Below are positions 8,910 to 50,311 of a stretch of DNA of 64,000 nucleotides, piece by piece (positions within the stretch are counted from its first letter, which is position 1; every line of letters starts with the position of its first letter). The translations under genes and the position numbers were made by a program. The stretch covers positions 1-64,000 of the IMG/VR virus record IMGVR_UViG_3300032299_001001; one strand, 5' to 3'. The notes beneath the pieces are model-generated. The model saw only the letters and a program-made list of their open reading frames with translations, was not told where the DNA came from and ran no database searches. Origin of the DNA: a virus.

Positions 8910-11228
8910 ATGAACCCCACACCTGAAGAACTCGGAATTAAACCCTGCCCAGCCTCCGGCCAAGGATGCCACTCATGGATGTTCAGGGCAGCGCACGCGC
9001 TGGTTGCTAACTCTTACGATGACCAATTCATCGACCAGTGGATCACTCACTACCTTGAGCGCCCACCCCAACCCCGCGAGATCGCCGACACGGTCTCCAA
9101 AGTCCGCGCCGAGGTCGAGGGGCTGATCGAGCCCAAGGCCCGTGTCTCTCTCAAACGGGCGTTTGATCCCGAGAAGCTCAAGGCCCTGACCGCGGAAGGC
9201 CCGCTTCCGGTGGAAGATTTCCTCCAGTCCTCGCCTGTCGCGGTCGCCGACATCACCGCGTCCGAGTTCCTCCGCCGACTCTACCCAAAGCAGGCGAACA
9301 TCATCTTCACCGACCAGCAGTCCCAGGGGAAGCTCGTCTGGAACGAGACGGTGCCCGACCTATTGGTCGATAACGCGATCACTAAGAACACCGAAGGTGC
9401 GTGGATCATGGTCAACCCGGTGAACGGCAAGTTCCTCGCCATTCCGCGACTCGGTAAGAAGTCTCAACGGGCCGAGGAGAACTTGGTCGCCTACGAATAC
9501 CTCCTCATCGAATCCGATTCGGTCGAGATGGAACTCTGGCTCCGTGTCCTCTCCAAGCTCGACCTCCCGATCGTCACGGTGACGACCTCGGGCTCGAAGT
9601 CCGCTCACGCTCTCGTGCGCGTTGGCCAGAAAGACCGCGAAGGCTACTTGGCCCGTGCCGCGGAGATCGCCGATCTCGTCGTCCCGCTCGGCGCGGACCC
9701 CGCTGCCATGTCCGCGGTGCGCCTGACCCGGGTTCCAGGTTGCATCCGCAAGGACACGGGGAAAGCTCAGACCTTGATCTACTTCAACCCGGAGGCGGGA
9801 GTTTTAATCCCATCGAGCGGGATGGGATTAGAATCAAGCGACGAAGTATCAGATAATGATACAAACTGTCAGGATTCGACAGCTTCTAGCAAACCGTCCA
9901 CTTCCGCAGAGAAGAGTGGACAGTATGACGACATCTACTACGACGGGAAAACCTTCTTCATGCGAGCGGGCGACGGGATCTGGCGCTACGAGATGGTCGC
10001 GATGCTGTCCAGTGAACTCAAATGCCGCAACATCTCCGACCGAGCCCCGAAAGGTGCAGCCATGTCGCCAATGGACCGCGCCAAAGCATTCATCCGCGAA
10101 CACCGCCGGGTCGATGGTGCCGGCCCCAGCCTATACAACCCGAACGAACTTTGGTTTGAGGGGGGCAAGAAATACCTGAACACCGCCAAGAACGTGAAGA
10201 TTATGCCCGCGGCCGAGACCGCCGGAGCTTGGGGTGTCGAGTTCCCCCGCTACGCAGCCATCCTCGACAACGTCTTCGCCCACCTCGACTACCGCGACTT
10301 CTTCATGGCGTGGCTGAAACGCTTCTACGAGTCCGCGGAAAAAGGGAAACTCTGCATGGGGCAAGCCATGATCCTGGTCGGACCCGTCCACTGCTATAAG
10401 ACCTTCTTCATCGAGCGCCTCCTCAAGCCGGCGATGGGCGGCTACGCCGACCTTAGTTCCATCGTCTCGGGCGAGGGCAACGGATTCAACGCCGACCTCT
10501 TCCAGTCCCCGCTCGCGATCATCGACGACACCAAGGCCGCGGAGAGTGAGGCCCAGACCAACCGCTACTCCTCGGCCATCAAGAAGCTCGTGGCGCACGG
10601 CACCCACAAATACCACGAGAAGTATCTGACCCCGATCATGGTCGAATGGCGCGGCCGAGTCGTCATCGCCGCCAACGACGATCCAGTCTCAATCAAAGCG
10701 GTCCCCGCTCTCGATATGTCCAACAAGGACAAGATCATCGCGCTCGCCCTCAAGACCTTCGAGGAAGGGCCGACGGTCGACGATCTCAAGGACGTGGAGA
10801 TCGAACTGCCGGCCTTCCTCGCGTGGCTCAAGGCTTGGGATATCCCCGCCAAATATATCGACGCGGCCAACCGCTACTATGTGATGAGCTACATATCCCC
10901 GGAGGTCATGGAGAAGATCGCCGCGGCCAGCCCGTCCGCGGAACTCCGCGACACGATCAACGCTTGGTGGGACCGCCGGGATGGTAATGAATGGGAAGGC
11001 ACCGCGGTCGAACTCCACCAGTCGTTCAACGATACCTTCGACAATGCGTCCCTGACCCGCCAATGGACGGTGCGCTCGATCGGGCGGCGGTTGGGTGAAC
11101 TCCAGAGCCAAGGTGACCCGAACGTGGAACTCGTCGCGAAACGCTCGGGCAAAGCGAAACTCTACAAATACCGGCTGACCCGACCGAAGATCGAGCCGGA
11201 ACCGGAGCCAGAGCCGGAGGTGTTTTAA
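8910..11228 (+). CDS. Primase-helicase (AEP-like primase + SF3 helicase)
   Basis: 772 residues. The N-terminal 320 residues hold a primase-like part: YEYLLIESDS supplies an acidic strand, TTSGSKSAHALVRV the conserved basic strand, and RLTRVPGCIRKD the downstream motif found in archaeo-eukaryotic-type phage primases. A low-complexity serine/aspartate linker (310-345) follows. Then comes a superfamily 3 helicase: Walker A LVGPVHCYKT near 490, Walker B LAIIDD near 535 and VVIAANDDP near 585, ending in an EPEPEPE tail. It should prime and unwind at the replication fork. Confidence 0.8.
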   Translation: MNPTPEELGIKPCPASGQGCHSWMFRAAHALVANSYDDQFIDQWITHYLERPPQPREIADTVSKVRAEVEGLIEPKARVSLKRAFDPEKLKALTAEGPLPVEDFLQSSPVAVADITASEFLRRLYPKQANIIFTDQQSQGKLVWNETVPDLLVDNAITKNTEGAWIMVNPVNGKFLAIPRLGKKSQRAEENLVAYEYLLIESDSVEMELWLRVLSKLDLPIVTVTTSGSKSAHALVRVGQKDREGYLARAAEIADLVVPLGADPAAMSAVRLTRVPGCIRKDTGKAQTLIYFNPEAGVLIPSSGMGLESSDEVSDNDTNCQDSTASSKPSTSAEKSGQYDDIYYDGKTFFMRAGDGIWRYEMVAMLSSELKCRNISDRAPKGAAMSPMDRAKAFIREHRRVDGAGPSLYNPNELWFEGGKKYLNTAKNVKIMPAAETAGAWGVEFPRYAAILDNVFAHLDYRDFFMAWLKRFYESAEKGKLCMGQAMILVGPVHCYKTFFIERLLKPAMGGYADLSSIVSGEGNGFNADLFQSPLAIIDDTKAAESEAQTNRYSSAIKKLVAHGTHKYHEKYLTPIMVEWRGRVVIAANDDPVSIKAVPALDMSNKDKIIALALKTFEEGPTVDDLKDVEIELPAFLAWLKAWDIPAKYIDAANRYYVMSYISPEVMEKIAAASPSAELRDTINAWWDRRDGNEWEGTAVELHQSFNDTFDNASLTRQWTVRSIGRRLGELQSQGDPNVELVAKRSGKAKLYKYRLTRPKIEPEPEPEPEVF

Positions 11229-11230
11229 CC

Positions 11231-11560
11231 ATGCACAACGCTGGTGAATTAGAAACGCTCCGCGGCATCTGTCGGCTGGCACTGTGCCCCGAAACCTTGG
11301 ACGGGGATTGGCAAAACGCCGCTACCGCGTTCTTCGGATTTTGTCGGGACCGGCAGATCAACCCGTTCAGGATCGAACTACCCAAAGAAGAAAAGAAGGG
11401 TGACTTCGACTTCAAAATGCCGCAGGGGAAACACAAAGGACGGTCTATGCGCTGGATTGTCGAAAATGACGCGCCCTACGCCGAGTGGTGCGTGGAGAAT
11501 ATGAATTCCGCTTGGATCCGAAACAAATTTATAGAGCTTTTCGAGGAAGCCAGCGTATGA
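11231..11560 (+). CDS. DUF3820-like small protein
   Basis: 109 residues. The C-terminal half reads KMPQGKHKGRSMRWIVENDA then PYAEWCVENM, the signature of the DUF3820 family ('fGKyKGk ... dPsYleWvlen'). This module is often joined to exonucleases or found next to replication genes. The N-terminal half is helical. Its stop overlaps the dCMP deaminase start (ATGA), so the two are coupled. Confidence 0.7.
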   Translation: MHNAGELETLRGICRLALCPETLDGDWQNAATAFFGFCRDRQINPFRIELPKEEKKGDFDFKMPQGKHKGRSMRWIVENDAPYAEWCVENMNSAWIRNKFIELFEEASV

Positions 11561-23036: not shown

Positions 23037-23293
23037 TTGACCTGAAGAAAAAGATCGAAGACTTGATCGGCGACGACGAAACCGTGCTCCTCGCCGATGG
23101 GTTCGAGGATGCCTTCGTCGGGATTGGCCGTCAGTTCGGCCGGCCGATGGCGGTCTATGACCGGGCGAAGTGCATTCAGATTTTGATGCGCGACGAGATG
23201 GATCACGAAGTCGCCGAAGAGTATTTCCAATTCAACGTCGAAGGCGCTTGGGTCGGCGAACAGACTCCAATCTTTTTGGAGGTAAACGAATGA
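23033..23293 (+). CDS. Small conserved phage protein
   Basis: 86 residues: DETVLLADGFEDAFVGIGRQ, FGRPMAVYDRAKCIQILM, EVAEEYFQFNVEGAWVGEQT. This is a widely spread phage family of unknown function, often next to late or modification genes. GGAGG-like spacing and an ATGA overlap couple it to the glycosyltransferase fusion that follows. Confidence 0.7.
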   Translation: MIDLKKKIEDLIGDDETVLLADGFEDAFVGIGRQFGRPMAVYDRAKCIQILMRDEMDHEVAEEYFQFNVEGAWVGEQTPIFLEVNE

Positions 23294-24480
23294 TTCCCTT
23301 TGTCCATGTCTGTAAACGCGATGAAGGATTTTTCGCGAAGTGGCTGCGTCATGCTCGCGGCCTTGGTCAGTTCCCCGAGATGGTCGTCTGGGCCGAGCCC
23401 GGCGTGAAGGTCGACCACAAGATCGACCGCGTCTTTGTATCGCCCTACGGATATCCCGAGGTCTGCACCCACATGTGGCATGAAGCGTGCACCATGTTGC
23501 GTGAACCCGTGCTCTACTTGGAGACGGACGCCTGGCCCTGTGCCCCGAACTGGTATGAGGTCTTGGCCGCGGACTACGCACAGCGCGAAAACCCTGCGGC
23601 CTTGGTCACTGCATCCTGTCACCCGCCACACGATACGGTCGGCGGGATCGGGATCTACGATGCAAAGAAGCTCCCGCTGCCCAAGACCTACAACGAGTTC
23701 CGCACTTGGGTCCGTGAAGGCGCTGCCTTCGACGAATGGATCGGAACCCTCGGACCGGAGTATGTCTCGAAGACTCCACTCATCCGGCACAGTTACGGCA
23801 TCTACCAAGGGGCCGACCTGATCGGCTACCACGCCTTTGGATCACGGGCGCACTTCGAGAAGATGTGCCGTGGCGCGGCTATCTTCCACAAGGATGCCTA
23901 TGGCACGGTGTCGAAGTGGGTCGGGCCGGATTCACAGCCTGCTCCCCTGCCCTGCGAGGGCGCGACCCCGCCGGACATGAGTGAAACGAGCAAACACCGC
24001 GACTGGTTTTTGCCTTACACGCAGGGTCACGGGATGGATGTCGGCTTCGGCGGCGATGCCCTGACTCCAACGTGTATCACCTTCGACATGCCCCAGCCCT
24101 ACACCTCGGTCGGGACATCAGCCCAACACCTAGGCGGTGACGCCCGCAAGATTCCGCTTAAAGCCGACACTCTCGACTGGCTCTACAACTCGCACTTGAT
24201 CGAGGACTTCACCTACGGCGAACAGATCGCGCTCGTGCTTGAATGGATGCGAGTGCTCAAGCCTGGTGGACGTTTGCTTATCCTAGCCCCCGACCAACAG
24301 CGGTTCTTGGCCCACTGCGCGGCGACGGGTCAGTCGATCAACGACAACCACAAAGAGGCCGACTACTCACTCAAGACTTTCAAAAAGAAAGTGCTCAAGA
24401 CCGGCAACATCCGCGCCCGTGTCGTGGCTGAAGAAGACTTCGCCGACTACTCGTGGGGCGTTGTCTTGGAAAAATTATGA
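23290..24480 (+). CDS. Glycosyltransferase-methyltransferase fusion
   Basis: 396 residues. The N-terminal 230 residues look like a GT-A glycosyltransferase: an inverted strand start, HEACTMLREPVLYLETDAWP with the acidic metal-binding E-T-D near 78-80, and a conserved FDEWIGTLGPEYVSK segment. The C-terminal 150 residues look like a class I methyltransferase of the type-11 kind: GHGMDVGFGGDA (SAM loop), DARKIPLKADTLDWLYNSHL (motif IV region) and LEWMRVLKPGGRLLILAP. The pair may build and cap a sugar on host surface, virion or DNA; the acceptor is unknown. Confidence 0.7.
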   Translation: MIPFVHVCKRDEGFFAKWLRHARGLGQFPEMVVWAEPGVKVDHKIDRVFVSPYGYPEVCTHMWHEACTMLREPVLYLETDAWPCAPNWYEVLAADYAQRENPAALVTASCHPPHDTVGGIGIYDAKKLPLPKTYNEFRTWVREGAAFDEWIGTLGPEYVSKTPLIRHSYGIYQGADLIGYHAFGSRAHFEKMCRGAAIFHKDAYGTVSKWVGPDSQPAPLPCEGATPPDMSETSKHRDWFLPYTQGHGMDVGFGGDALTPTCITFDMPQPYTSVGTSAQHLGGDARKIPLKADTLDWLYNSHLIEDFTYGEQIALVLEWMRVLKPGGRLLILAPDQQRFLAHCAATGQSINDNHKEADYSLKTFKKKVLKTGNIRARVVAEEDFADYSWGVVLEKL

Positions 24481-24874: not shown

Positions 24875-25457
24875 GTTTCTCATTGAGCCAGCACCAGGAT
24901 GGGAAGGTGTAGCCTTGGCTGACCTCTTGAGCGACATCCTGCGGCAACCAGATTTTCGCTTTGATCGCGCAGCCACAGACCCCGCATTGGTTGAGCCGTG
25001 AAGCATAAGCCGTGGTCCGTGCACCGATCAGGTTGAAGAGCCATTCGGCCAACCCCTTGCACCGCCAGCACCCCTTGACCATTGTGTTCAGGGGACATGA
25101 GGCACAGAGCGCGGCCCGGCGTTCGGCTTCGGGTTGATCAACAAGTCCCCTGCCCCTAAGTGCGGAGACCGCGGCTTGGATGAAACGCTTAACGTCCTCC
25201 ATCGTGAAGTGGGTCTTGAGTGCGTAGTCACCCTCGATGACGTGGCTGCAACTCTCACTGCCGATCGGAAGCTGGGCACAGACAAAGTCTTGGATGTCGG
25301 CCGAAGGATCACCCGCCGCAAGACTATTGGACTTACGATGGGTCGCCACCTTCTTGACCAGTTCGCGCAAGGTCGAAGCGGCAAACTCGAAGCCCGTCTC
25401 CGGTTGAACATAACGCCAACCGCCGGGCGGGGTCACTCTGGTATCGGTTACTATCAT
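24837..25457 (-). CDS. Cysteine-rich zinc-binding-like protein
   Basis: 206 residues. The C-terminal half has RRAALCASCPLN, KGCWRCKGLAEW and NQCGVCGCAIKAK, three paired-cysteine units that probably bind zinc. The N-terminal half has a GWRYVQPETGFEF strand motif and FAASTLRELVKKVATHR, seen in small phage proteins. The end (LPTGIEPVSQP) is coded by the antisense of the tRNA. Start overlaps the stop of the giant gene (ATGA), so it is the last gene of the virion operon. Confidence 0.65.
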   Translation of the reverse strand: MIVTDTRVTPPGGWRYVQPETGFEFAASTLRELVKKVATHRKSNSLAAGDPSADIQDFVCAQLPIGSESCSHVIEGDYALKTHFTMEDVKRFIQAAVSALRGRGLVDQPEAERRAALCASCPLNTMVKGCWRCKGLAEWLFNLIGARTTAYASRLNQCGVCGCAIKAKIWLPQDVAQEVSQGYTFPSWCWLNEKPLPTGIEPVSQP

Positions 25458-28400
25458 CGATCGGCAAGGATTTCGCGGGGCACGGCCGAGCGGCGGGCTT
25501 GGTTGTAGGCGGAGACGCGGTCGTTTTTACCGCGGGACCGAACCAAGTCTATGCTCTGCTTGCTCGCGTCGTAGGGTTTGTATATTCCGGTGGTCACCAT
25601 TTTGATGGTGTCGCCGCCGAGACCTCCGTCACGGAGGATCGCTTTGGCCCGCTGCACAGACACCCCGAGACGGATCGCGGCGAGGTAGTCCCTGCGAATT
25701 GAGTCGATCAGGCTGCGCCGGGCGGCGTTGGACCGAGCATAGCCGTCGATCACGTCGCCGGCCGAGCGGGTGCCTTGGGCGGTGAACTCGCGGTTGAAGA
25801 GGGCCGAGGCATCGCGCATCTCGCGCATGAAGCGGGAAGATTTGAACTGGAGTGCCTGCTGCGCGTCGACCGAGGAGACACGCTGGCCGAGTGCGACACT
25901 GGAAAGCTCGTTGATGAGGTTGTAGGAACGTCCGGTCTCGCTCTCGATACCGAAGGCGGCTTTACCGATACGCTCGGCGCTGTTCACGGTGCCGGGGACG
26001 AAAGGATCGTAGAAGATCTTGCGGGCTACATTGAGACCGATGTTCGCTCCGGTGTCCTGCGGGTTGTAGACCTGACGGCCGGCCGCATCACGGTTCCGCA
26101 TCACGTCCATGATCGCTCCGGCGAAGATTTGCTCGCTGGTAAAGGGATCAATGGCTTGGCGCACCATGTCCATCGTGCCCTTGAGTAAGATCTCGTCTGC
26201 ACTGCCGGGACTGCGTATTGAACGCATGAATGCGGTCAAAGGCTTTTTGAAATACTCGTAGGGGTCCAAGAAGCTGACATCGAGAAAGTCGATCTCGCCG
26301 TTTGCTTTGCGGAAGAGGACAAGCTGACTGTTCTTCTGCCAGTCGGGCAGGAAGCGGCGGAGGTCTTCTTCGTCTTCTCCGGAAATGCCCGCCATCGCCA
26401 TAGCGGCGGAGCCGACGGCAAACGGGAGGAAGGCGGCAATAGTCATGCCGCGGACCCGCTTCCAGCCGATTGCTTCGAGTTCTTTGTTGCCCGTGGCTCG
26501 GCCTTCTGTGATCTCCTGGCGGGCCAGCTTTTGCAGATTGTAAGTGGTGCGGATGACTTCGCTCGTGAAGGTCACGAACGGGGCAACGAAGGGGAACTTC
26601 TTGAGATCCTGCACAATGGCCGGGGCCAGTGAGTAGGTCCAGTGGATGTCCCGGGCGATGACTGCGGCTTTCTCCTTGATCTTGTTGTCGTCCCAGTCAG
26701 GAAAGGCTCTCCGGTATTTATCCTGCTCGGCCTCGTAGATCATCACTTTGAACCAGTCGTCACCGGCCGAGTAGGTCTTGACCGCGAAGTCGGCCACCCG
26801 CTTGAAGGGATCTCCGACTTTATTCCAAACGAAGTCCCCGAAGTCAGGGCTCCCGGCGCGGCGGCTGGCCGTGAGGAGATCTTCAAGGAGTCCGGTGGTG
26901 ATCGACTCGCCGACGATACCGCGGCGGATATAGTCGTCGATTTTCACCCGCCACTCGGCGCGGCTCATGTTGCGATATTTCCCGAAGGTGCTGGCCAGCA
27001 CAGTGTCGGTAGAGTTGGCGAACCGTCGCTTAAAGTCGCCGCTGGTAATATCGTCCAACCCCAAGTTCCCGCCTGCGATTAGTGGCATGTAGTTACCGAA
27101 GAAGTTCCGGACCTGGGACGCCACCGATCCGACCGTCTTGGTCGCCATCGAGATGCCGGTCAGCTTCATCAAAGCACGCAGCCAAGCGTAGTGCTCCTCG
27201 GTCGAGCCAACCGGGAACATCTTGAAGAGCCCCTCGGCCAGATCCGGATGCACATACATCCCACCAAGAGGTCTCAGTGAAGGATTCTTCTCGGTTGAAA
27301 TACGGACGTAGCCGGGCGGGTGACGGGTATCGTCGGGGTTGTTCTCACGACTCCAAAGCCAGCCCTCTTGGATACCGAGGTCCCGCAGTTCCTTGAGGAA
27401 GTTATCGTTGGCGATGACGCTGGAGAGCTTCATTACCGTCTTGGCATAGTTGACGCTCGGATCTTCGTAGCGACCCCAAAGGGCTTGGATCTCCGGCGCG
27501 ATGTTGCCGCGCTGGTTGAACATGCTGAGATTCTTCTGCCCGGGGATGCGGCCGGAGAGCACCTCGATCGTCGGGGCCTCTGCGCCGATCGCGAGATAGC
27601 CTTCGAGGAGGTTCTCGACCTCGTCGTCGATCACTGAATCGTTGGCGAGTGCTTCGGCGTCGATACGGGAAAGTGTGCGGCCTTCGTCGGCAGCATCAGC
27701 GATCAGGTCTTGGGCTTTCGCTTTAGCCAAGCTGTTGCGGATATACTTACGGGCCGCGTCCATGACCTTGGCATCTTTTCGCACACGGTCAGTCCACTGC
27801 GGATCATCGAAGATCGCATAGCTACGGTTAAGGTAGGTGCCGAGCGCCTCATCAACTGTGATCGCCAAGTCGCCATTGACCAAACCCTCGTTAGGCAACT
27901 GCCGTGAAAGCGACTCGATGTGTGAGGACATCTCGCGGATCGTCGCAGCCAGTTCTTCCGGCAACTGGGCCAGGGCTTGCGTCTGTTTGTTCTGCTTAAA
28001 GTTGCGGCGGTTGTCGCGGATGTATTGGTCGCGCTTCTTGGCGGCTTGATTGGTCAACCCGCGAGCCCGCAAATCTTCAATTTCGCCGATCTGCTGCTCG
28101 GTGAGCGGGTTGTCCAAGTTACCGAGCGCCGTGTTGATCGTCTCCAGGGGCGGTGTCTCACCTTTGTAGAAATTTTTAATCTGCCGCTCCAACACCCGGG
28201 AGAGGTCTTGGATCTTCGACACATCGACTTTGATCGCCATCCGGCTTGAGCGGTAGAGATCGCCGGCCCGCTTATCGAGAAGCTCGTCGACGGCAAACAT
28301 ACCACCGCGGCTGATTGTGCCTCCCGTCGGCGTGCGGCGGGTCACCGGACGCCAGACTCGCCCGCGGGCTCGGGATTCGTTCGGTTGGTCCACCGCGCCA

Positions 28401-31400
28401 CTAGCTGCGTTCGACTGTATGGAAATTTGAACGTCGAAGGGGACCACGACTTTCTTTTTCCCGATCTTGACGGTCTTTACGTTTCCTGGAACGACATCCC
28501 AAACACGTTGAACCTCACCATTACGAACGCGCACCCAGGATCCATCGTCCTGTTTCGTGAACTTTAACTCATCGCGGAAGTAGCTGTTGATTTCGGGGAT
28601 CGTTGAATCTCTTCCCTTAATGTAGGGTTGCGAGGTGACGATTCGTGGGAAGGGCTCCCCAAGATCGACAAGTCCCTCAAGGCGAATGTCGATGTTGAAA
28701 AGTTTTTTGTGGGCATTGAGATTCGTGAGGTAGTCAAAAACATTGATCGACTGACCGACCACCCCGCTCCCGGTCACATCCGGATTGGTGTATTTGATGA
28801 CACGGTTGGTCGGCTTGTCCGAGTGGACTTGGTGCTCGGAACCGTCGCCGATCTTCTTACGGCCATTAATGACCGTGTTCTCAAAACTCTCAGGATCAAG
28901 GATGAGCCCTTGCTCTTCGAGGACGTTGATGAGTTCCTCGAACGCAGCCGCGCCTTGGGCACGACGGCGCTGTTCTAATCGTTGATCGGCTTGCCCGCCA
29001 GTGTCGGCACGAAACCGGAAGCTCTCGCCTGCGCCGAGATCTCGGCCTCGGTTGGCGGATTCTTGGAGGCGTAGTAAAGCCCTTCCGATGTTCCCTTCAG
29101 GGCTTCCCGTTCGCGGTCGTCCTCGAAGGTTTCCTTCGGCATCTTGGTAGATGAGATTCGGGCTTTCACCGACGGCGCGGCTTTCGTTGAGGTCTTCATT
29201 TGGTAGAGTCAGTCCTGCTTCGGCTGCGAGTTCGGAAAGCCGGGTAGCTCGAACGCTGTCGGGCCGTCCAGTGTCGCGTCCCGCCAACCGGCTTCTTGCA
29301 ATAGCCGATCCCACTGTTCGAGCGTAAGCGGCTCGCCCGGCTTCACGGGAATCTTCGTTGCCGAGGAAGTTGCCGGTTCCTTTGTAATATTTTGTTTCAT
29401 AGTTATTACTTGAGACTAACTCTCTGACGGGCAAAAAGAGCGAGCCGTTCTTATCAAAAATTAAGACACGAGTCCCTCCGTTTTGTTCAATCAAAGTCCG
29501 GAATTGGATCCCGGCTGTCTCTAAAATACCACGGGATTGGTCTGCCGTCTGATTTGGGATAAAGACATCATAAAGTCTAGAAGTGCCTTCTGAGTCTCTC
29601 AGGAATGGAATTACTTGCTTCTGGTTTCTCAGTGCCCCCTTGAGCGCGGCCATTACCTCTACGTCCTCATACGTCAGTCCCGGAGCATAGTGCTCGGTTA
29701 CCGTCGTGGGCTCCGCGCCGTCTGCCCAATCTCCGATAGCGTCACTGACTCGGCTTTGATCTAGCCCGAAAACCGTATGAATCCTACTGGCAAACGCCCT
29801 GAGTTGCTCTTGCTGCGTTCCAGTCAACGCCGCCCGGGCCTGTGCAAATGTCAGATTCTCCCGTTCATTAGGGGAGACAAACTCCATCGCCACCGCCCGA
29901 CTCTCCGTCACAGTGTCCGCAGCCAAGGCACCCCGCCAATCCATGAACTCCTCGGGGAGAAGGGCCACCTTCTGCGTGGCAAAAGGACGCTCGGAAGCAG
30001 GAACCTTGATCCGTGTTCCGTCAGCCGCGTAGTTGTGAGCCCCATAATTGACCCAGGAATTCTGCCCCCGGGTCTCGGTGGTCAGCGCCCTCTGGGCCAG
30101 CGGGGTGAACATCTGGCTGTGCTTGATCCAGGCGTTCTCCTCGCCGCGGGCTCCGAACTGGTAGTCCTCGGCTGCGTGACCGAAGAGATCGTGGATCGCA
30201 CGCAGCTTGTCATTCATCGTCAGCCCGTCGGCATCGGGCTGGTTGAGGAGCGGGTGCGGTTCACCGCCCGTGAAAAACCACAAGTGTTTGTTATCCCGGA
30301 CATCGCGCACCATCTCCCGGGAATTGGCGTAGGGTTGCCCCTCGGTTGTCCACGGCTCGAAGGTGACTCCCATCGTATTGATGGCATAGTCCCACTGCTG
30401 CTGGATCTCGAAGCCCAGTTGCCGGTAGGCGTCCTGGGTCTCCCGACCTTCATCGAGGACCGGGAGTGCGTCATAAGCCGCAGCGATGCTGCGAGCCCGT
30501 TGTTCGTCGACTGGGGCGTAGTGCCCGCGGACTACTTCGCCGAGCCCGTAACGGGCATTGTAGGCACTGACTCCTTCTTGGACGAAGGGGTTTGGCTCGG
30601 CGTTGGGCCGAACTGTTTGCCTTTGAACTTGGTCGCCTCCACTTGCGGATCCCATCCCTGGGGTGGTCGCTTGTAGGGCAGGTTGGTTTCTTCTGTCATT
30701 GGTTGCTCCTTGGTTAGACAAAGCCTCGCGGCTTTCGTTAGAAATTGCTCTCGATTCTTGGGGGGTCTGGATGGTGACCGGCTCTACAAAATCCCGAAGA
30801 TCAGGGATTTCCCACCACCTGACTTGCCGCTGCGGGATAAAGGCGGCGTCCCGCATCTGCGGTGTCAGATCACCCGCCCGCATCCCCGTGGGGAAGATGT
30901 GCACTGGAACCGGGACGGTTCCGTAAACTTCCCGCACGGCATCGATTCTGGACCGACCTTCATGGTCTTTAATTTTCCAGACACCAGCCGTGTCATCCCA
31001 AGTTGCACTGAGGAACGGAGGACCGAGCTTCTCGCCGCGGCTGAGTGCGCCAACAACAAAATCTTTAGTCTCGGTATCGGAAACACCGCCAGGAACGAGA
31101 CGGCGGAACTCGTCCGGTGTCATGTATTTCACGAACCCGAAGTAATTGATGTCAATTTGGTTCGGAACCTGACCGATCCCTTCACGCGAATCAAAAATGT
31201 TTTCGATAGGTGAAGGACTAACCGCCCGACTCATCGTCACCGGATCAGCCAGCGTATCGACATCGGCGTCCGCTTCCTCGACCGTCGCCTCTGCACCCCG
31301 TTCCATGTTCCGTGCAGCCATGAACTCTTGCAGCAAGGCTTCACGTTCCGCGGTCGTGCCGGTCAATCCCCGGGCGATGATCTGGTCTTCAATAAAATTG

Positions 31401-34400
31401 GTTGCTTGGTCGAGGGCGGCGAGATCCTGGGCCAAGGGGTTCGCTCCGATCGGAGGTTTGGCATAGCCCTCGGTCGTGCCTTCGAGAGCACCGAAGGTCG
31501 CGGCCCACGCATCTTGGAAAGCGTTGGCCAGCGGGCTCGTCTCCGCGGTCTTCTTGCCAGAGTTGAGATCGACGATGTCGCCCCAAGCCTCGGCCACGGG
31601 TCCGGACAGCGAGGTCTTCTTGCCTTTGGTCTTGGCTTTACCGAGCCCGAGTTGCAGGGCGAGCTTGAGAAATTCCGGACTCTCCATGAGACCGCGTGCG
31701 GTCTCCTCGGCATTGACCAGATAGGCAAAGCGGCGATCGGCATCGGCTCCGACCACGTTCGGGTTGGAGAGGTCATCGACCTGACGGCTCAACTGCGCCA
31801 GTGTTGTGGGGTTATTACCCGCGGGGACTTCGAGACCGTTGGTCCGGGCGACAGCCTTGAGCATTCGCACACGGAAGGCTTCGATTCCTTTGATCGCGGC
31901 CTTCTCGACGGTGTTGAGTTTTTCCAGTCTGGCGAACTTTGTTTTGGAGAACACATGGGCGATCTCGTGCAACATGGTCAGCCCGATGTCATCGGCCTCA
32001 TGCCAGTTATCGAGGTTGAGCACGACCGAGTAGCGGCCGACTGGCGAAGTCGCGTTCTCGTCGACTCCGAGCACACCGGCCCAAGAGGTCCGCGTCTGTC
32101 CGGTCACAAGATCGAACGCCCGTGCCCGGGCTTCTTTGCCGGCTTGTTTGCGGGTGCGCCCCGACTCACCGCCGAAAGCATACGTCTCCACGCCACCCGG
32201 AGTGGTCACCTCGAAGACACCCTCACCTTCCTCGCCTTGAACTTCCTGCACCCGAGCCCGCACTTCTTCACCGCGCAAAGGCTGGGTCGCGAAGTTGCGG
32301 CGGAAGATACCGACCTGCATCGCGATGTCATCAATGTTGAGACCGAACCGCTGACCCTGGCTCAAGACGACCTTGGCAATCATCCGCATGAACGCCGGTC
32401 GGTCGCCATCTTGCGCCATGAACTCAAGCGCGGCCTTCGGACCTTCGAAGATCCGGCTACGCACGGCCTCTTGGGCATTGCGGCGGATCGCATCGATCCG
32501 CTCACGGTTGGCCATGTAACTGGAAAATTCCTCTTGGTATCCGGCGACGAGTTCTTCAACTGATCGACCCATCAGGTCGGCCATGTTCGCCTCGGTCGCG
32601 GCGACAACGCGGCGTCCCTTGGTCGCGGCGAGAGCGTCGAGGGTGGTCGAGACTGCTTGGTAGATCTTCTCGACGACTGCCTCAGAGAGGCCGGCGACTA
32701 GACTGCGGTCGCCGATGAAGGAGCCGACGAAGGCTCGCCTCGCGGTGCTGGCGTTCCGTTGGTCAGGAGTTCCTCCCAGGCCAAGTCCTCCACCAGATCC
32801 AGCGGGTCCAGCCGGAACAGTTCCGGTTTGGCCATCATCAGTTCGGCCCACACGGTTACGTCCCCGTTGAGTGCCCGCTCGATTACGTCCTCGCCCACGG
32901 CTTTCTGTAGGCCCTCCGGCAGCGACCGGTTGCGCTCCAGTAGTCCGCCCACGAAGATCGTTAGCATTTGCGGGTTGTCCCGAAAGTATTTCTGAACCTT
33001 GTTGGGTTCCTTGGTTGATTTGGTCATAGGTTTTATTCCCTTGGAGATACTCTAGCAGTTCTTCGACACGTTGCTGGTCGCTTTCGCTCAATTCTTCTCC
33101 GCGGAGATGGTCTTTAAGAAGGTCGTCATCCTCTTCACTCAGGCGAGAACGGCGCTCCCGAGCATCCATCGCGGCATCGCTGGTCCGCTCGGCAAACCTC
33201 TCAGCCGGAGTCTGTTGGGGCCGCGCATCTCCGGTCGTCCCCGCGGCGAGATCGGCTTCTGCCGCCCGCTGGTTACGTCCGGTCCGGACCGCCGATTTCT
33301 TGGCGCTCTGCGCCTTGGTCATCGCCGTCTTGATCGGGCTGAAATCTCCGTAGCTCTGCCAACGCTTCACGATCGGCTCGACCGCGGCCGATGCCTGTGC
33401 TGCGGTTTGCCCCGAGGCCACGAGTTCCTCGGTGATCTGACGCGCTGCTTCCTGCACATCGCGACCGGTATCGGCTCCCGTCTCGTTCTCCTGATTGCTC
33501 TCGAAGATATCGAGCATCCGGCTGTTGAACTTTTTGAAGAGCGCGAGATCGCGCACCGGAGGCACACCCTTCTTATCGCGGCCGGCCACCTGTTCGATGA
33601 TCGAGGCATCGGCTTCGTCGGAAGCCATCGCTTTGGCCTCGGGATCGAGGTCGCTGCGACGATCAATGAACCGTGCAGCCCGTGCCCGTGCATCGCCGAC
33701 AAAGAACTGGTCGGCCTCGTCGAGGCTTTCCAGCTTTGACTGCACCGAACCAACGGTTTTGCCCGCGCTCTCTTTCTGTGTCTGCTTGCCCTTGCGAGCC
33801 CGCTCACTGCGAAGTAAACGCTCGGGTGAGTTGAAATAGATATTGTCAAAACCTCCCGGGCCGGTGTTCTCCCCGTTCACCGAAAAGTCATAGGCGGCAT
33901 CTCCGCGGCGATAGGTGTTGCCGTTGTAGACGACCTTAGTCACGACGTTGGCGGTCTGACCGTTCTTCATCGTGCGCGGCTCCACTTGCACACCTTCGGG
34001 AAGATTCTGAAGCTGGTCATCCGGCACCGGGACATCGAGTCCGAGGTTCATCTGACGCACCGTGGTGAAGAGGTTCTTCATCCACTTGCCGAAGTTTACG
34101 ACTTCTTTGACCCCGGGCTCACCTTCCTTGTCGAAGTAGCGCACCTCGCCCGGCACCTTGTTCGTCTTGCCGGGGTTGGCGTAGAGACCATCGTCGAAGA
34201 ACGCCTCTTGCGGCTGACCTTCTTGGTAAGGTGTCCCAAAGACGCGCTCGGCTTTCGCCTTGGTCGGCTTCGGTCCGAGCACCGAATTAACGGCAACATC
34301 GACCGGTGACTGCTTCGGCGTGGGCTGCTTGAACATCCCGAGCCGGTTGTATTGCTGCGGGGTAAAGACGAGCTTCTCTTGGTTGCCCTCGGCATCCGGC

Positions 34401-36721
34401 TCGGTCACCACGACCACGTTGCCATTCGGACGGCGGGCTTCGAAAGTCGCACCGAACGAAAGCGAGTCATCGGCTTTCTCATCCGAGAGGTAGACCGTCA
34501 CCTTGTCCTTGGGTTGCAGGCTCTCGACAAATTGGCGCGACTGATCCGGAGGACGGTTGACCGTTTGCTGTGCGACTTTGACCTGCTCGACTTTGGTATC
34601 GGCGATCGTCTGCTTGCTCTTCTGAATCTCCGCATCGAGTGCCGTCGCTTCGGCCGGCGCTTTGCTTAAAGTGTCTTCGACCTGAACGAGCTTTTGATAC
34701 AGCGGCTCGGTCAGCGTGCTCTTGGCTTCCGGTGCCAGGTCCCGGCGCTCGATCTCCCCGATCGAACTCTCCAGCGTGGTCCGCGCATCTCGCAGCAAGG
34801 TCACCGCATTGCGGTCCAGTGTCTCAGCGGTCTCCGCTGCTTGGTCCACGATCGAGACTTCAGGGCGGGCCAGTGCCGCCTTGGAAATTTCCTCCGCGCC
34901 CATCGTTGCGAGATCGGGCATCGGTGTCGGTTGTTCGACCGGCGGAGTCTGCACTGCCGGGATCGAAGTAGCAGTTAGACGAGTCAGCGCAGGGGCCGCA
35001 ACGATCTCGACTTCGCTCTCCGCAGGAACTTCGACCTCCGTGCCATCATTGGCCCGCAGCAAAAACCTTGCACCGTCTTGGGCCAGTGACCCCTCGTAGC
35101 CATTGAACCGCACATTGGAACCAACCGCCTGACCAGCCGGCGTCATGTCCGGACCATCATCAAGCACCGATTCCGTGGCCGGGGTGCGCGGTTTAGGTTT
35201 CTGGACCGGGGTGCGTTTTACCTGCGTCGATCCGACCTCATCGTCATCGAAGAACCCAAGGGCTTTCTGTGCCAGAGCTTTTTCCGATCGGGTCGGGAGA
35301 TTGAGATACTCGACACCATTAAGCAGCGAGAACACTTCACCCTGCGGAGTTGAAAACCTCGGCAACCCAGAAAACTTTTGTGGATCAGGGTTAAAGATCG
35401 CGACCTTGCCTTCGTCATTACGGCGAAAATCAAAACCCCCAACAACCTTCGGCTCCGACCAGTTACTCTCAAGGACTGTGAGTGGTTGGCCCGACGCCGG
35501 ATCCTCCGGGATGTTGACTAGTGTCTGCTGTGTAGTCCGGCGCAACTTCTCCGCCGTCTGCGGAGCCAGTGCTTCGATGACACTGCCAGCGCCACCCAAA
35601 GCACCGCCGACTGTGGCCCCCGCCAGAGCGGCAATCCGCCGCTCCCGTTCCGCTTCCGGCGTTCCGACCACTTCCTCGATCGTCCGGTTCGGATCGGCCG
35701 CACCGAGAGCGGCTTGCTCCAATCCGGTCTGCACATACTCGGTGCCACCTTCCAAGGTTGCCGCAGCAGGAAGACCAACACCAACGCTTCGGGCCACCCG
35801 GCCAGGAAATGAAATCCCTGTGGCTGTATCGACACCCTCTGCTGCCGCCCGTCCCGTCTTCGTGAAAGGCTTGAGAAATTTCCCCGCGATAAAGACCTCA
35901 CCCAAAGTATCGAGTGCAGCCCCAGGAACAGCAAACGCTGCCGCTGCCAAGGCATCCCCTTCACCCGTCTCTTGGGCGATCTGACCGAAGCTCCCGCCCG
36001 CGATCTGGCCAAAGTTGGCGGCATAAGCACCTCCGATAGCTCCTCGGGTAGCTGCTTTATTGATGAGTTCAGCCCCCTCACCGAGAAGCATTCTTTTCGC
36101 GACCATCCCGGCCACTTCTTTTTCCGCGACATCTTTGGCCAACCCCGCAGTCACCCGCTTGCCAATCTCATTGGCCACAATTTTCTTCGCCACCGTCTTC
36201 GCGGCAAAACCACCGACGCCACCACCGACGGCCGAGACAAGTAACTGCGGGATCTGCTCACCAAGTAACCCAGCCGCATAAGTCGCCGCATCCCCCAGCC
36301 CGCCAATCTCCTCGAAGGGATCCTGCACAGTCGCTTGGTTCTGCGCGGCCTCCTCCATCTTACGGACGTAATTATCCAGCCCGAACTCCTCGATTCCCTC
36401 CACCCCGAGCGCCTGCCCCATGAGCCCGACCAACCCGTAGCCGAGACCTTGGGTCTGGTCGACACCGCGATCTAAACCAGTCGAGAACTCTTCGCGGAGG
36501 GTGCGTTCGGGCGCGGGATTCAGGATCGTCCCGCGTAGAGCAACCCTCGAAGCAAACTCCTCTAAGGGAACAACCACGTCTTCCTCTTCACTTGAAGAAG
36601 CACTGGGGGGTGGAGTGGTTCCGGGCGGACGCGCCGAAAGGCGGTAGAAATCTTCTACTGGGATTATTACATCCTCGGAAGTCTCAGTTGCCGCATCATC
36701 CTCAAGGTCATACCAAGCCAT
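25454..36721 (-). CDS. Giant polyvalent protein (3755 aa), probable ejected virion protein
   Basis: A short acidic N-terminus with a repeated EDVIIPVEDF/EDVVVPLEEF motif leads to a glycine-rich hydrophobic region (about 90-390). Then come linkers and a zincin-like protease segment (TMLHEIAHVF near 1580). A ParB-like segment follows (MTPDEFRRLVP, DHEGRSRIDAVR near 1855-1945), then a domain with IHDLFGHAAEDYQFGARGE near 2140, a kinase-like segment (2590-2765) and a long helical C-terminal part resembling LPD38-type regions. This matches the polyvalent-protein concept: large multi-domain proteins delivered with phage DNA. It lies last after other ejection genes. ESRA-type motifs mark several boundaries, and three small genes overlap linker regions. 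Confidence 0.8.
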   Translation of the reverse strand: MAWYDLEDDAATETSEDVIIPVEDFYRLSARPPGTTPPPSASSSEEEDVVVPLEEFASRVALRGTILNPAPERTLREEFSTGLDRGVDQTQGLGYGLVGLMGQALGVEGIEEFGLDNYVRKMEEAAQNQATVQDPFEEIGGLGDAATYAAGLLGEQIPQLLVSAVGGGVGGFAAKTVAKKIVANEIGKRVTAGLAKDVAEKEVAGMVAKRMLLGEGAELINKAATRGAIGGAYAANFGQIAGGSFGQIAQETGEGDALAAAAFAVPGAALDTLGEVFIAGKFLKPFTKTGRAAAEGVDTATGISFPGRVARSVGVGLPAAATLEGGTEYVQTGLEQAALGAADPNRTIEEVVGTPEAERERRIAALAGATVGGALGGAGSVIEALAPQTAEKLRRTTQQTLVNIPEDPASGQPLTVLESNWSEPKVVGGFDFRRNDEGKVAIFNPDPQKFSGLPRFSTPQGEVFSLLNGVEYLNLPTRSEKALAQKALGFFDDDEVGSTQVKRTPVQKPKPRTPATESVLDDGPDMTPAGQAVGSNVRFNGYEGSLAQDGARFLLRANDGTEVEVPAESEVEIVAAPALTRLTATSIPAVQTPPVEQPTPMPDLATMGAEEISKAALARPEVSIVDQAAETAETLDRNAVTLLRDARTTLESSIGEIERRDLAPEAKSTLTEPLYQKLVQVEDTLSKAPAEATALDAEIQKSKQTIADTKVEQVKVAQQTVNRPPDQSRQFVESLQPKDKVTVYLSDEKADDSLSFGATFEARRPNGNVVVVTEPDAEGNQEKLVFTPQQYNRLGMFKQPTPKQSPVDVAVNSVLGPKPTKAKAERVFGTPYQEGQPQEAFFDDGLYANPGKTNKVPGEVRYFDKEGEPGVKEVVNFGKWMKNLFTTVRQMNLGLDVPVPDDQLQNLPEGVQVEPRTMKNGQTANVVTKVVYNGNTYRRGDAAYDFSVNGENTGPGGFDNIYFNSPERLLRSERARKGKQTQKESAGKTVGSVQSKLESLDEADQFFVGDARARAARFIDRRSDLDPEAKAMASDEADASIIEQVAGRDKKGVPPVRDLALFKKFNSRMLDIFESNQENETGADTGRDVQEAARQITEELVASGQTAAQASAAVEPIVKRWQSYGDFSPIKTAMTKAQSAKKSAVRTGRNQRAAEADLAAGTTGDARPQQTPAERFAERTSDAAMDARERRSRLSEEDDDLLKDHLRGEELSESDQQRVEELLEYLQGNKTYDQINQGTQQGSEILSGQPANANDLRGRTTGAQPVAAGGPTESRGRGRNRAGTQRGRNRVGRTDDGQTGTVPAGPAGSGGGLGLGGTPDQRNASTARRAFVGSFIGDRSLVAGLSEAVVEKIYQAVSTTLDALAATKGRRVVAATEANMADLMGRSVEELVAGYQEEFSSYMANRERIDAIRRNAQEAVRSRIFEGPKAALEFMAQDGDRPAFMRMIAKVVLSQGQRFGLNIDDIAMQVGIFRRNFATQPLRGEEVRARVQEVQGEEGEGVFEVTTPGGVETYAFGGESGRTRKQAGKEARARAFDLVTGQTRTSWAGVLGVDENATSPVGRYSVVLNLDNWHEADDIGLTMLHEIAHVFSKTKFARLEKLNTVEKAAIKGIEAFRVRMLKAVARTNGLEVPAGNNPTTLAQLSRQVDDLSNPNVVGADADRRFAYLVNAEETARGLMESPEFLKLALQLGLGKAKTKGKKTSLSGPVAEAWGDIVDLNSGKKTAETSPLANAFQDAWAATFGALEGTTEGYAKPPIGANPLAQDLAALDQATNFIEDQIIARGLTGTTAEREALLQEFMAARNMERGAEATVEEADADVDTLADPVTMSRAVSPSPIENIFDSREGIGQVPNQIDINYFGFVKYMTPDEFRRLVPGGVSDTETKDFVVGALSRGEKLGPPFLSATWDDTAGVWKIKDHEGRSRIDAVREVYGTVPVPVHIFPTGMRAGDLTPQMRDAAFIPQRQVRWWEIPDLRDFVEPVTIQTPQESRAISNESREALSNQGATNDRRNQPALQATTPGMGSASGGDQVQRQTVRPNAEPNPFVQEGVSAYNARYGLGEVVRGHYAPVDEQRARSIAAAYDALPVLDEGRETQDAYRQLGFEIQQQWDYAINTMGVTFEPWTTEGQPYANSREMVRDVRDNKHLWFFTGGEPHPLLNQPDADGLTMNDKLRAIHDLFGHAAEDYQFGARGEENAWIKHSQMFTPLAQRALTTETRGQNSWVNYGAHNYAADGTRIKVPASERPFATQKVALLPEEFMDWRGALAADTVTESRAVAMEFVSPNERENLTFAQARAALTGTQQEQLRAFASRIHTVFGLDQSRVSDAIGDWADGAEPTTVTEHYAPGLTYEDVEVMAALKGALRNQKQVIPFLRDSEGTSRLYDVFIPNQTADQSRGILETAGIQFRTLIEQNGGTRVLIFDKNGSLFLPVRELVSSNNYETKYYKGTGNFLGNEDSREAGRAAYARTVGSAIARSRLAGRDTGRPDSVRATRLSELAAEAGLTLPNEDLNESRAVGESPNLIYQDAEGNLRGRPRTGSPEGNIGRALLRLQESANRGRDLGAGESFRFRADTGGQADQRLEQRRRAQGAAAFEELINVLEEQGLILDPESFENTVINGRKKIGDGSEHQVHSDKPTNRVIKYTNPDVTGSGVVGQSINVFDYLTNLNAHKKLFNIDIRLEGLVDLGEPFPRIVTSQPYIKGRDSTIPEINSYFRDELKFTKQDDGSWVRVRNGEVQRVWDVVPGNVKTVKIGKKKVVVPFDVQISIQSNAASGAVDQPNESRARGRVWRPVTRRTPTGGTISRGGMFAVDELLDKRAGDLYRSSRMAIKVDVSKIQDLSRVLERQIKNFYKGETPPLETINTALGNLDNPLTEQQIGEIEDLRARGLTNQAAKKRDQYIRDNRRNFKQNKQTQALAQLPEELAATIREMSSHIESLSRQLPNEGLVNGDLAITVDEALGTYLNRSYAIFDDPQWTDRVRKDAKVMDAARKYIRNSLAKAKAQDLIADAADEGRTLSRIDAEALANDSVIDDEVENLLEGYLAIGAEAPTIEVLSGRIPGQKNLSMFNQRGNIAPEIQALWGRYEDPSVNYAKTVMKLSSVIANDNFLKELRDLGIQEGWLWSRENNPDDTRHPPGYVRISTEKNPSLRPLGGMYVHPDLAEGLFKMFPVGSTEEHYAWLRALMKLTGISMATKTVGSVASQVRNFFGNYMPLIAGGNLGLDDITSGDFKRRFANSTDTVLASTFGKYRNMSRAEWRVKIDDYIRRGIVGESITTGLLEDLLTASRRAGSPDFGDFVWNKVGDPFKRVADFAVKTYSAGDDWFKVMIYEAEQDKYRRAFPDWDDNKIKEKAAVIARDIHWTYSLAPAIVQDLKKFPFVAPFVTFTSEVIRTTYNLQKLARQEITEGRATGNKELEAIGWKRVRGMTIAAFLPFAVGSAAMAMAGISGEDEEDLRRFLPDWQKNSQLVLFRKANGEIDFLDVSFLDPYEYFKKPLTAFMRSIRSPGSADEILLKGTMDMVRQAIDPFTSEQIFAGAIMDVMRNRDAAGRQVYNPQDTGANIGLNVARKIFYDPFVPGTVNSAERIGKAAFGIESETGRSYNLINELSSVALGQRVSSVDAQQALQFKSSRFMREMRDASALFNREFTAQGTRSAGDVIDGYARSNAARRSLIDSIRRDYLAAIRLGVSVQRAKAILRDGGLGGDTIKMVTTGIYKPYDASKQSIDLVRSRGKNDRVSAYNQARRSAVPREILADR
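28975..29199 (-). CDS. Nested small gene in +1 frame of giant gene (second of pair)
   Basis: 74 residues from ATG 29199, eight bases after the stop of the nested gene before it, in the same frame. Basic N-terminus, then an acidic helix (KETFEDDREREALKGTSEGL) and YYASKNPPTEAEISAQARAS with VPTLAGKPIND. Third codon positions are mostly G or C, as in real genes here, while the giant protein over the same DNA is arginine/glycine/alanine-rich linker. No motif recognised. Real but unproven. Confidence 0.5.
   Translation of the reverse strand: MKTSTKAAPSVKARISSTKMPKETFEDDREREALKGTSEGLYYASKNPPTEAEISAQARASGFVPTLAGKPIND
29209..29400 (-). CDS. Nested small gene in +1 frame of giant gene (first of pair)
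   Basis: 63 residues from an ATG one base after GTAATAAC (29402-29409). The sequence looks like a normal compact protein: KPGEPLTLEQWDRLLQEAGW then DATLDGPTAFELPGFPN. The giant frame here reads a repetitive arginine-alanine linker (residues about 2441-2504). The junction motif, the start position and the codon bias all favour translation. Function unknown. Confidence 0.6.
   Translation of the reverse strand: MKQNITKEPATSSATKIPVKPGEPLTLEQWDRLLQEAGWRDATLDGPTAFELPGFPNSQPKQD
29402..29409 (-). promoter_or_regulatory. GTAATAAC junction motif inside giant gene
   Basis: Exact minus-strand copy, read by the giant frame as Ser-Asn-Asn, immediately followed by T and the ATG of the nested gene. Every other minus-strand copy found stands between two genes. 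Its presence here is independent support for the nested pair. Confidence 0.55.
32698..33027 (-). CDS. Nested 109-aa gene in +1 frame of giant gene
   Basis: 109 residues with ordinary protein composition: NKVQKYFRDNPQMLTIFVGG, LLERNRSLPEGLQKAVGEDV, VWAELMMAKPELFRLDPLDL. It has hydrophobic helices and G/C-ending codons almost throughout, until a serine/proline-rich tail. AAGGGAATAAAACCT precedes the ATG. The giant protein over the same bases (residues 1232-1341) is glutamine-, glycine- and arginine-rich low-complexity sequence, including TESRGRGRN. This strongly suggests that the nested frame is the older or better-conserved one. Function unknown. Confidence 0.65.
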   Translation of the reverse strand: MTKSTKEPNKVQKYFRDNPQMLTIFVGGLLERNRSLPEGLQKAVGEDVIERALNGDVTVWAELMMAKPELFRLDPLDLVEDLAWEELLTNGTPAPRGEPSSAPSSATAV

Positions 36722-50124: not shown

Positions 50125-50311
50125 AATGCTTGTTTTTCTCCTAATTTGTGGGGTTATTACTTTGCCTTGATCGGGAGACGCACATGCGGTCCGAGGCTAG
50201 TAACAACACCACGATTTTGCTTTTCTCTTCCCGTCGCGGATCGGGCTTCCTCGCGAACCTAACTTTTCTGATTTCTACCGGATGATTGCCGCTACCCGTA
50301 AACGTGAGACT

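Follow-up and report, generated by a model that had tools for sequence, protein, structure and literature searches.

Probable overprinted small genes at the module joints of a giant phage gene

Do two small open reading frames inside a giant phage gene represent genes, and if so, were they swallowed by the large frame or written over it? The question arises from a window of 64,000 nucleotides, positions 1 to 64,000 of the IMG/VR virus record IMGVR_UViG_3300032299_001001 (66,433 bases), whose minus strand carries a giant gene of 3,755 codons at 25454..36721. A preliminary description had noted two ORFs nested in this gene behind an octamer, GTAATAAC, and had read them as a small operon engulfed when once-separate domain genes fused. 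The ORFs themselves are as it claimed: N63 (29209..29400, minus strand) and N74 (28975..29199, minus strand), of 63 and 74 codons, are complete, with start and stop inside another gene on the same strand, and both are read in the +1 frame relative to the giant ORF (36721-25454). At a module joint they follow one another head to tail in their shared frame, in the manner of a small operon, and the octamer indeed stands at 29402-29409 (minus strand), one base ahead of the N63 ATG at 29400. The two ORFs are separated by 9 bases (CTCTACCAA), not by the 8 given earlier.

The giant protein is modular and resembles polyvalent proteins, and its C-terminal part matches a virion structural family. Profile searches gave matches to phrog_22602 (virion structural; E 1e-32) and to phrog_3170 (function unknown; E 1e-23), the latter defining module 2 at 29933..30610 (minus strand). 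Nothing in Pfam or NCBIfam matched the window giant significantly, and the domains known from polyvalent proteins (LPD, ART-PolyVal and others) were not encountered there. A putative HExxH metallopeptidase-type motif, HEIAH, can be read at 31955..31969 (minus strand).

Two phages are close relatives, one represented by loci L010, L011 and L013 (contig IMGVR_UViG_3300032304_001448) and the other by L012 and L020 (IMGVR_UViG_3300044643_001926). Their giants are 82-97% identical to the window giant over the aligned length, and whole cassettes differ. Cassette 1 (30755..31231, minus strand; SRA 1831 to SRA 1990) has different content in L020 and is cleanly missing from L013, which reads TMSRA directly followed by ISNES. 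Cassette 3 (29183..29902, minus strand; between SRA 2274 and SRA 2514) is swapped for another cassette in L020 and recurs, at 49% identity, in a different place of the giant of a further relative, L014. Module 4 (28376..29182, minus strand; between SRA 2514 and SRA 2783) carries N74 at its 5' edge; a suspected kinase identity for this module was confirmed by no profile. A search of cassette 3 and module 2 against genome contigs gave no match. The window giant is, in short, a very large multidomain phage protein with exchangeable domains, as polyvalent proteins are.

Because the cassette breaks among close relatives coincide with SRA/ESRA, ESRA is, by alignment, a module seam in the giant family formed by the window and these relatives; it does not hold as a seam marker in more distant giants. 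The ESRA that the preliminary description had seen beneath the nested ORFs occupies giant residues 2513-2516 (29185-29174), inside N74 and at the joint; N63 and N74 appear to straddle the junction of cassette 3 with module 4, where the ESRA codons lie. The same description had called the giant protein here an Arg/Ala/Gly-rich linker; this is correct in part, as the first ~25 giant codons under N63 encode a conserved domain tail. In the giants of three related phages, SRA/ESRA tripeptides coincide exactly with cassette seams, in the window at 30746-30754, 29894-29902, 29174-29182, 28367-28375 and 31223-31231 (minus strand); they might represent recombination seams or sites for a protease.

Do the nested frames read like genes? 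We scored the codon content of the alternative frames along the giant gene against simple re-codings in which the giant protein was held fixed and its codons were re-drawn by genome usage or permuted locally. The top +1 score in the gene, 26.7, belonged to N109 (32698..33027, minus strand), a nested ORF of 109 amino acids in a Gly/Arg-rich giant linker, followed by N74 (23.1), N63 (14.8) and a further nested gene, N55 (9.8). With the null 95% line at 14.7, N63 sits at that line and N55 just above the median of the codon-shuffle null. In the +2 frame of the giant gene no signal rose above its own 95% line, and among the other long ORFs of the window the +1 score exceeded the null marginally at most, save for one: a long GTG ORF at 23170-24480 (plus strand), whose +1 frame scores strongly as coding and which is probably a wrong-frame ORF over another gene. 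N109, N63 and N74 each exceeded all 2,000 genome-usage re-codings (P<0.0005 for the latter two); N55 scored at P=0.0075. Under local codon permutation, P was 0.03-0.08 for N109, 0.03 for N63, 0.08 for N55 and 0.002 for N74, with 0.001 for the L020 copy of N74. Compared with L020, N109 shows a ratio of synonymous to nonsynonymous changes of 13:17 in the nested frame and 7:26 in the giant frame. The nested proteins had no credible match in Pfam or PHROGs, and AlphaFold models of N109 and N74 were of low confidence (pLDDT 52 and 67), too weak for a fold search.

Perhaps N63 and N74 are merely chance open +1 frames above a linker that is rich in Arg, Ala and Gly and odd in its codon usage, and only N55 and a family described below, WN, are real? 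With the giant protein fixed, the +1 frame stays open in ~49% of synonymous re-codings over N63 and in ~17% over N74, so chance alone often produces such frames (P 0.49 and 0.17); the scores are explained in part by local codon permutation; and the conservation of N63 with L014 is not significant. However, the genome-usage re-codings never reached the codon content of either ORF, better-supported nested genes adjoin, and N74 has been kept by relatives. Its ATG and TAG are present in both close relatives, L013 and L020, and the L020 copy retains a protein-like sequence. Identity with L020 is 51/75 in the nested frame and 53/76 in the giant frame (68-69% nested); since a giant-only null that evolves fast predicts nested values as high as this one (P 0.28), the case for N74 rests instead on codon content, on the kept start and stop, and on depressed synonymous change. 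Over N74, 9 of the 53 unchanged giant residues carry a synonymous change relative to L020, compared with 58 of 145 in the adjacent module (p=0.0023), and differences at the three giant codon positions number 20/10/18 over N74 and 44/23/84 next door. At an early stage we had read the nested ORFs as refuted, on the grounds that L020 has another cassette and that substitutions outside the islands fall on giant codon position 3; the frame comparison reversed that reading. We therefore regard N74 as a probable overlapping gene with fair support, and the explanation of the pair by chance as improbable, though far from negligible.

N63 is a likely overlapping gene, with the weakest support of the nested set. 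No Shine-Dalgarno site precedes it, and the need to encode the giant peptide NYE goes some way towards forcing its ATG. Lying at the 3' end of cassette 3, it moves with that cassette to L014, where the homolog has the same ATG and an open frame that is fused in frame to an N55 core; nested-frame conservation between the two gives P values of 0.06-0.36, which are not significant. The giant frame under N63 is the domain tail KGTGxFLGxxDSR, and because this tail also occurs in a separate 596-amino-acid protein (L032) with no N63-like start, the giant frame appears to be the older of the two, and the best reading of N63 is a gene written over coding sequence that already existed rather than a swallowed one.

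This bears directly on the earlier model of a small operon that stood between separate domain genes and was engulfed on fusion. In its favour, 9 bases separate the N63 stop from the N74 start, the nested genes do lie at module borders, and the giant linker over N55 is less conserved than the N55 frame. Against it, a search of viral contigs and of 50,697 phage records gave no free-standing homolog of the tested nested proteins, and the age of the giant frame under N63 runs the wrong way for it. We consider this origin unlikely. The preliminary description had also named, as evidence against itself, a relative that keeps the giant frame and lacks the nested starts and the octamer. L020 goes half that way. 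Its cassette 3 has been replaced, and the octamer and N63 are gone with it, but the start and stop of N74 are kept, and another nested ORF takes the place of N63. The replacement cassette has its own unrelated 86-codon +1 ORF, over giant residues 2409-2494 (locus 10986-11246), whose stop lies 3 bases before the N74 start.

Is the octamer a start signal for N63? In the window, GTAATAAC occurs 17 times, with 0.46 copies expected, and in the sense of the genes. Fourteen of these copies are non-internal; most of them lie just upstream of a gene start, and the extension NCCRCAA is common to the group. The extended gene-sense motif, GTAATAACNCCRCAA, stands a short distance upstream of many genes on both arms, for example at 18612-18626 (plus strand), 50146-50160 (minus strand) and 31804-31818 (minus strand), and may serve this phage group as a promoter or a start element. 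The copy before N63 (29402..29409, minus strand) lacks the extension: its flanks score -2.4 (P=0.15), and those of the 14 non-internal copies score between 1.9 and 8.7. It spells AGT AAT AAC, codons of a conserved SNNY peptide, which L014 writes as TCC AAC AAC; the homologous cassette there has SNNY and the nested ATG and no octamer. A tie between octamer and nested genes is thus not supported on either count, and we rejected this copy as a start signal for N63; it is probably not functional here. A perfect copy elsewhere inside the giant gene, GTAATAACCCCACAA at 31811..31818 (minus strand), has the best flanks of all copies relative to the extended motif (P=1.5e-4) and is a possible regulatory element. 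Behind it lies a 137-amino-acid +1 ORF, possibly the "first island" of the preliminary description, which we rejected as a gene: it is Arg/Ser/Pro-rich, codon signal is absent, and substitutions there fall on giant codon position 3.

On sequence comparison, N55 (30532..30699, minus strand) is the best-supported nested gene of the window. It belongs to a family marked by the core RPPxGW, has AGGAG 6 nucleotides before its ATG, and extends into the phrog_3170 module. In the 28 codons before the module, the nested frame is identical to that of L015 at 18 of 27 positions and the giant frame at 8 of 28. Re-coding under the giant frame only yields 7.8 +/- 2.0 nested identities, with a maximum of 15 in 3,000 trials (P<0.001). 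The comparison with L014 gives 20/27 and 15/28, respectively. The RPPxGW core is kept in the window, L015, L018 and L016/17 and nearly kept in L014, and four other distinct giants retain N55, whose frame is generally the more conserved. It is present in 9 of 10 records, each time nested and single. Further protein-like +1 linker ORFs were noticed over giant residues 1596-1692 of L017 (shared with L016), 1374-1464 of L021 and 2733-2789 of L014. The L017 ORF weakly resembles a nested ORF of L018, and that of L021 resembles the stretch just before N55 in L015.

The same +1 scan was run on giants of public phages, chosen partly for module 2 and an LPD38-bearing C terminus; LPD38 is present in the giants of other phages compared. 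Linker peaks appeared in the +1 frame and never strongly in +2. MinM2 and ct7L0027 have small +1 ORFs in linkers, both just upstream of the phrog_3170 module and with AGGAGG before the ATG, and phiARM81mr and Ruegeria phage 45A6 also have small +1 ORFs in giant-gene linkers. Scanning PTXU04 and Pascal gave no nested genes, and a +1 peak in Mel-JY33 was dropped as insufficiently protein-like. By tblastn, the 120-amino-acid protein of 45A6 found homologs at 32-36% identity (E 5e-12 to 5e-10) in Serratia phage Parlo, Pseudomonas phage Skulduggery, Klebsiella phage ZX1, and Vibrio phages D274 and 1.232.O, the last of which the scan alone had missed. These proteins form a family, WN, of 120-131 amino acids, common to Ruegeria, Serratia, Pseudomonas, Klebsiella and Vibrio phages and found in neither PHROGs nor Pfam. 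By record coordinates all lie in the +1 frame of a giant CDS, the only annotation there. Their start methionines align (M[YHF]Q[VA]P..WN), and the upstream bases include GAGG, AAGGA or AAGGAG. Relative to re-codings that keep the giant proteins alone, their nested BLOSUM similarity reaches z = 7.6-12.2. The giant segment that 45A6 shares with the other WN phages starts near the nested gene and runs into a helicase module.

N55 and WN are conserved far beyond what the giant frame explains; for both, the nested frame is, judged from the alignments, the more conserved one. Purifying selection on the nested frame beyond that on the host frame is thus seen for N55 and WN, partially for N74 and N109, and not significantly for N63. 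That every nested ORF lies in the +1 frame might suggest programmed frameshifting, which would give giant isoforms with other C termini instead of separate small proteins. But long phase-1 overlaps outnumber phase-2 ones anyway (PMC2542354), so a +1 excess is expected, and the WN ATG is conserved at a homologous place with Shine-Dalgarno-like sites, as are found in the AGGAGG of MinM2 and ct7L0027; we hold frameshifting to be quite improbable. Alternatively, two compensating indels could have displaced an ancestral in-frame stretch from its frame, leaving a relic that would, we infer, likewise yield protein-like +1 sequence in a low-complexity giant linker. Yet WN and N55 are out of frame in every lineage seen and still under purifying selection, and no relative carrying a nested sequence in its giant frame was seen. 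We give this last explanation hardly any weight.

We conclude, with a confidence of about three in four, that the giant gene is a chain of exchangeable modules, several of whose joints would be read in two frames, with small +1 genes that include N63 and N74. As a set, the nested genes are probably real, with uneven support. The giant frame would pass through these joints as a loose linker or a domain tail, while the +1 frame would encode a small gene with its own ATG and stop and a product of 55-109 amino acids. Such proteins would arise by internal initiation on the giant-gene mRNA; several of the starts have a Shine-Dalgarno-like site. For each of the three families that have relatives, the 5' border of a co-travelling module is where the nested gene is found: N55 with phrog_3170, N74 with module 4, and WN with the helicase module. 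By analogy, we would guess, quite tentatively, that each small protein is a partner of its own module or of the giant protein, and either holds an injected effector inactive or aids its packaging. A broader generalization, about which we are similarly doubtful, is that giant polyvalent phage genes are built of cassettes, each a module plus its own overprinted +1 gene at the 5' border whose product serves or restrains it. If so, swapping a module would also swap its small partner. If the nested genes are translated, giant phage proteins have small partners, and nested genes can be used to locate the borders of exchangeable modules. Skulduggery, Parlo, ZX1 and 45A6 are recorded isolates with known hosts, so the prediction is directly testable.

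We found no report in the open-access literature of overlapping small genes in linkers of giant phage genes, and the genes are missing from the annotations that we checked because gene callers drop any ORF that is contained in a long gene. How do they compare with known systems? The polyvalent proteins of phages and conjugative elements (Iyer et al. 2017, PMC5512222) are alike in being very long and multidomain, in HExxH motifs and swapped modules, in LPD38-bearing relatives by architecture and in possible cassette exchange; that study treats cassette exchange and self-processing and does not mention overlapping linker genes. The Rpn intragenic antitoxins (PMC10327210), small proteins made from inside the gene for a toxic protein on which they act, are the model for our guess at function, but they are an in-frame C-terminal domain, whereas the nested genes here lie in the +1 frame. 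The embedded gene in lysA of mycobacteriophage Ms6 (PMC3111421) is likewise contained entirely within a phage gene, again in frame there and +1 here. The nearest likeness in form is to overprinted viral genes (reviewed in PMC8227390; OLGenie test method, PMC7531306), in which two frames of the same strand are used and a small nested gene lies over a poorly constrained part of its host. What sets the present case apart from them is that several such genes lie at the module joints of one giant gene, travel with its modules and recur in unrelated giants.
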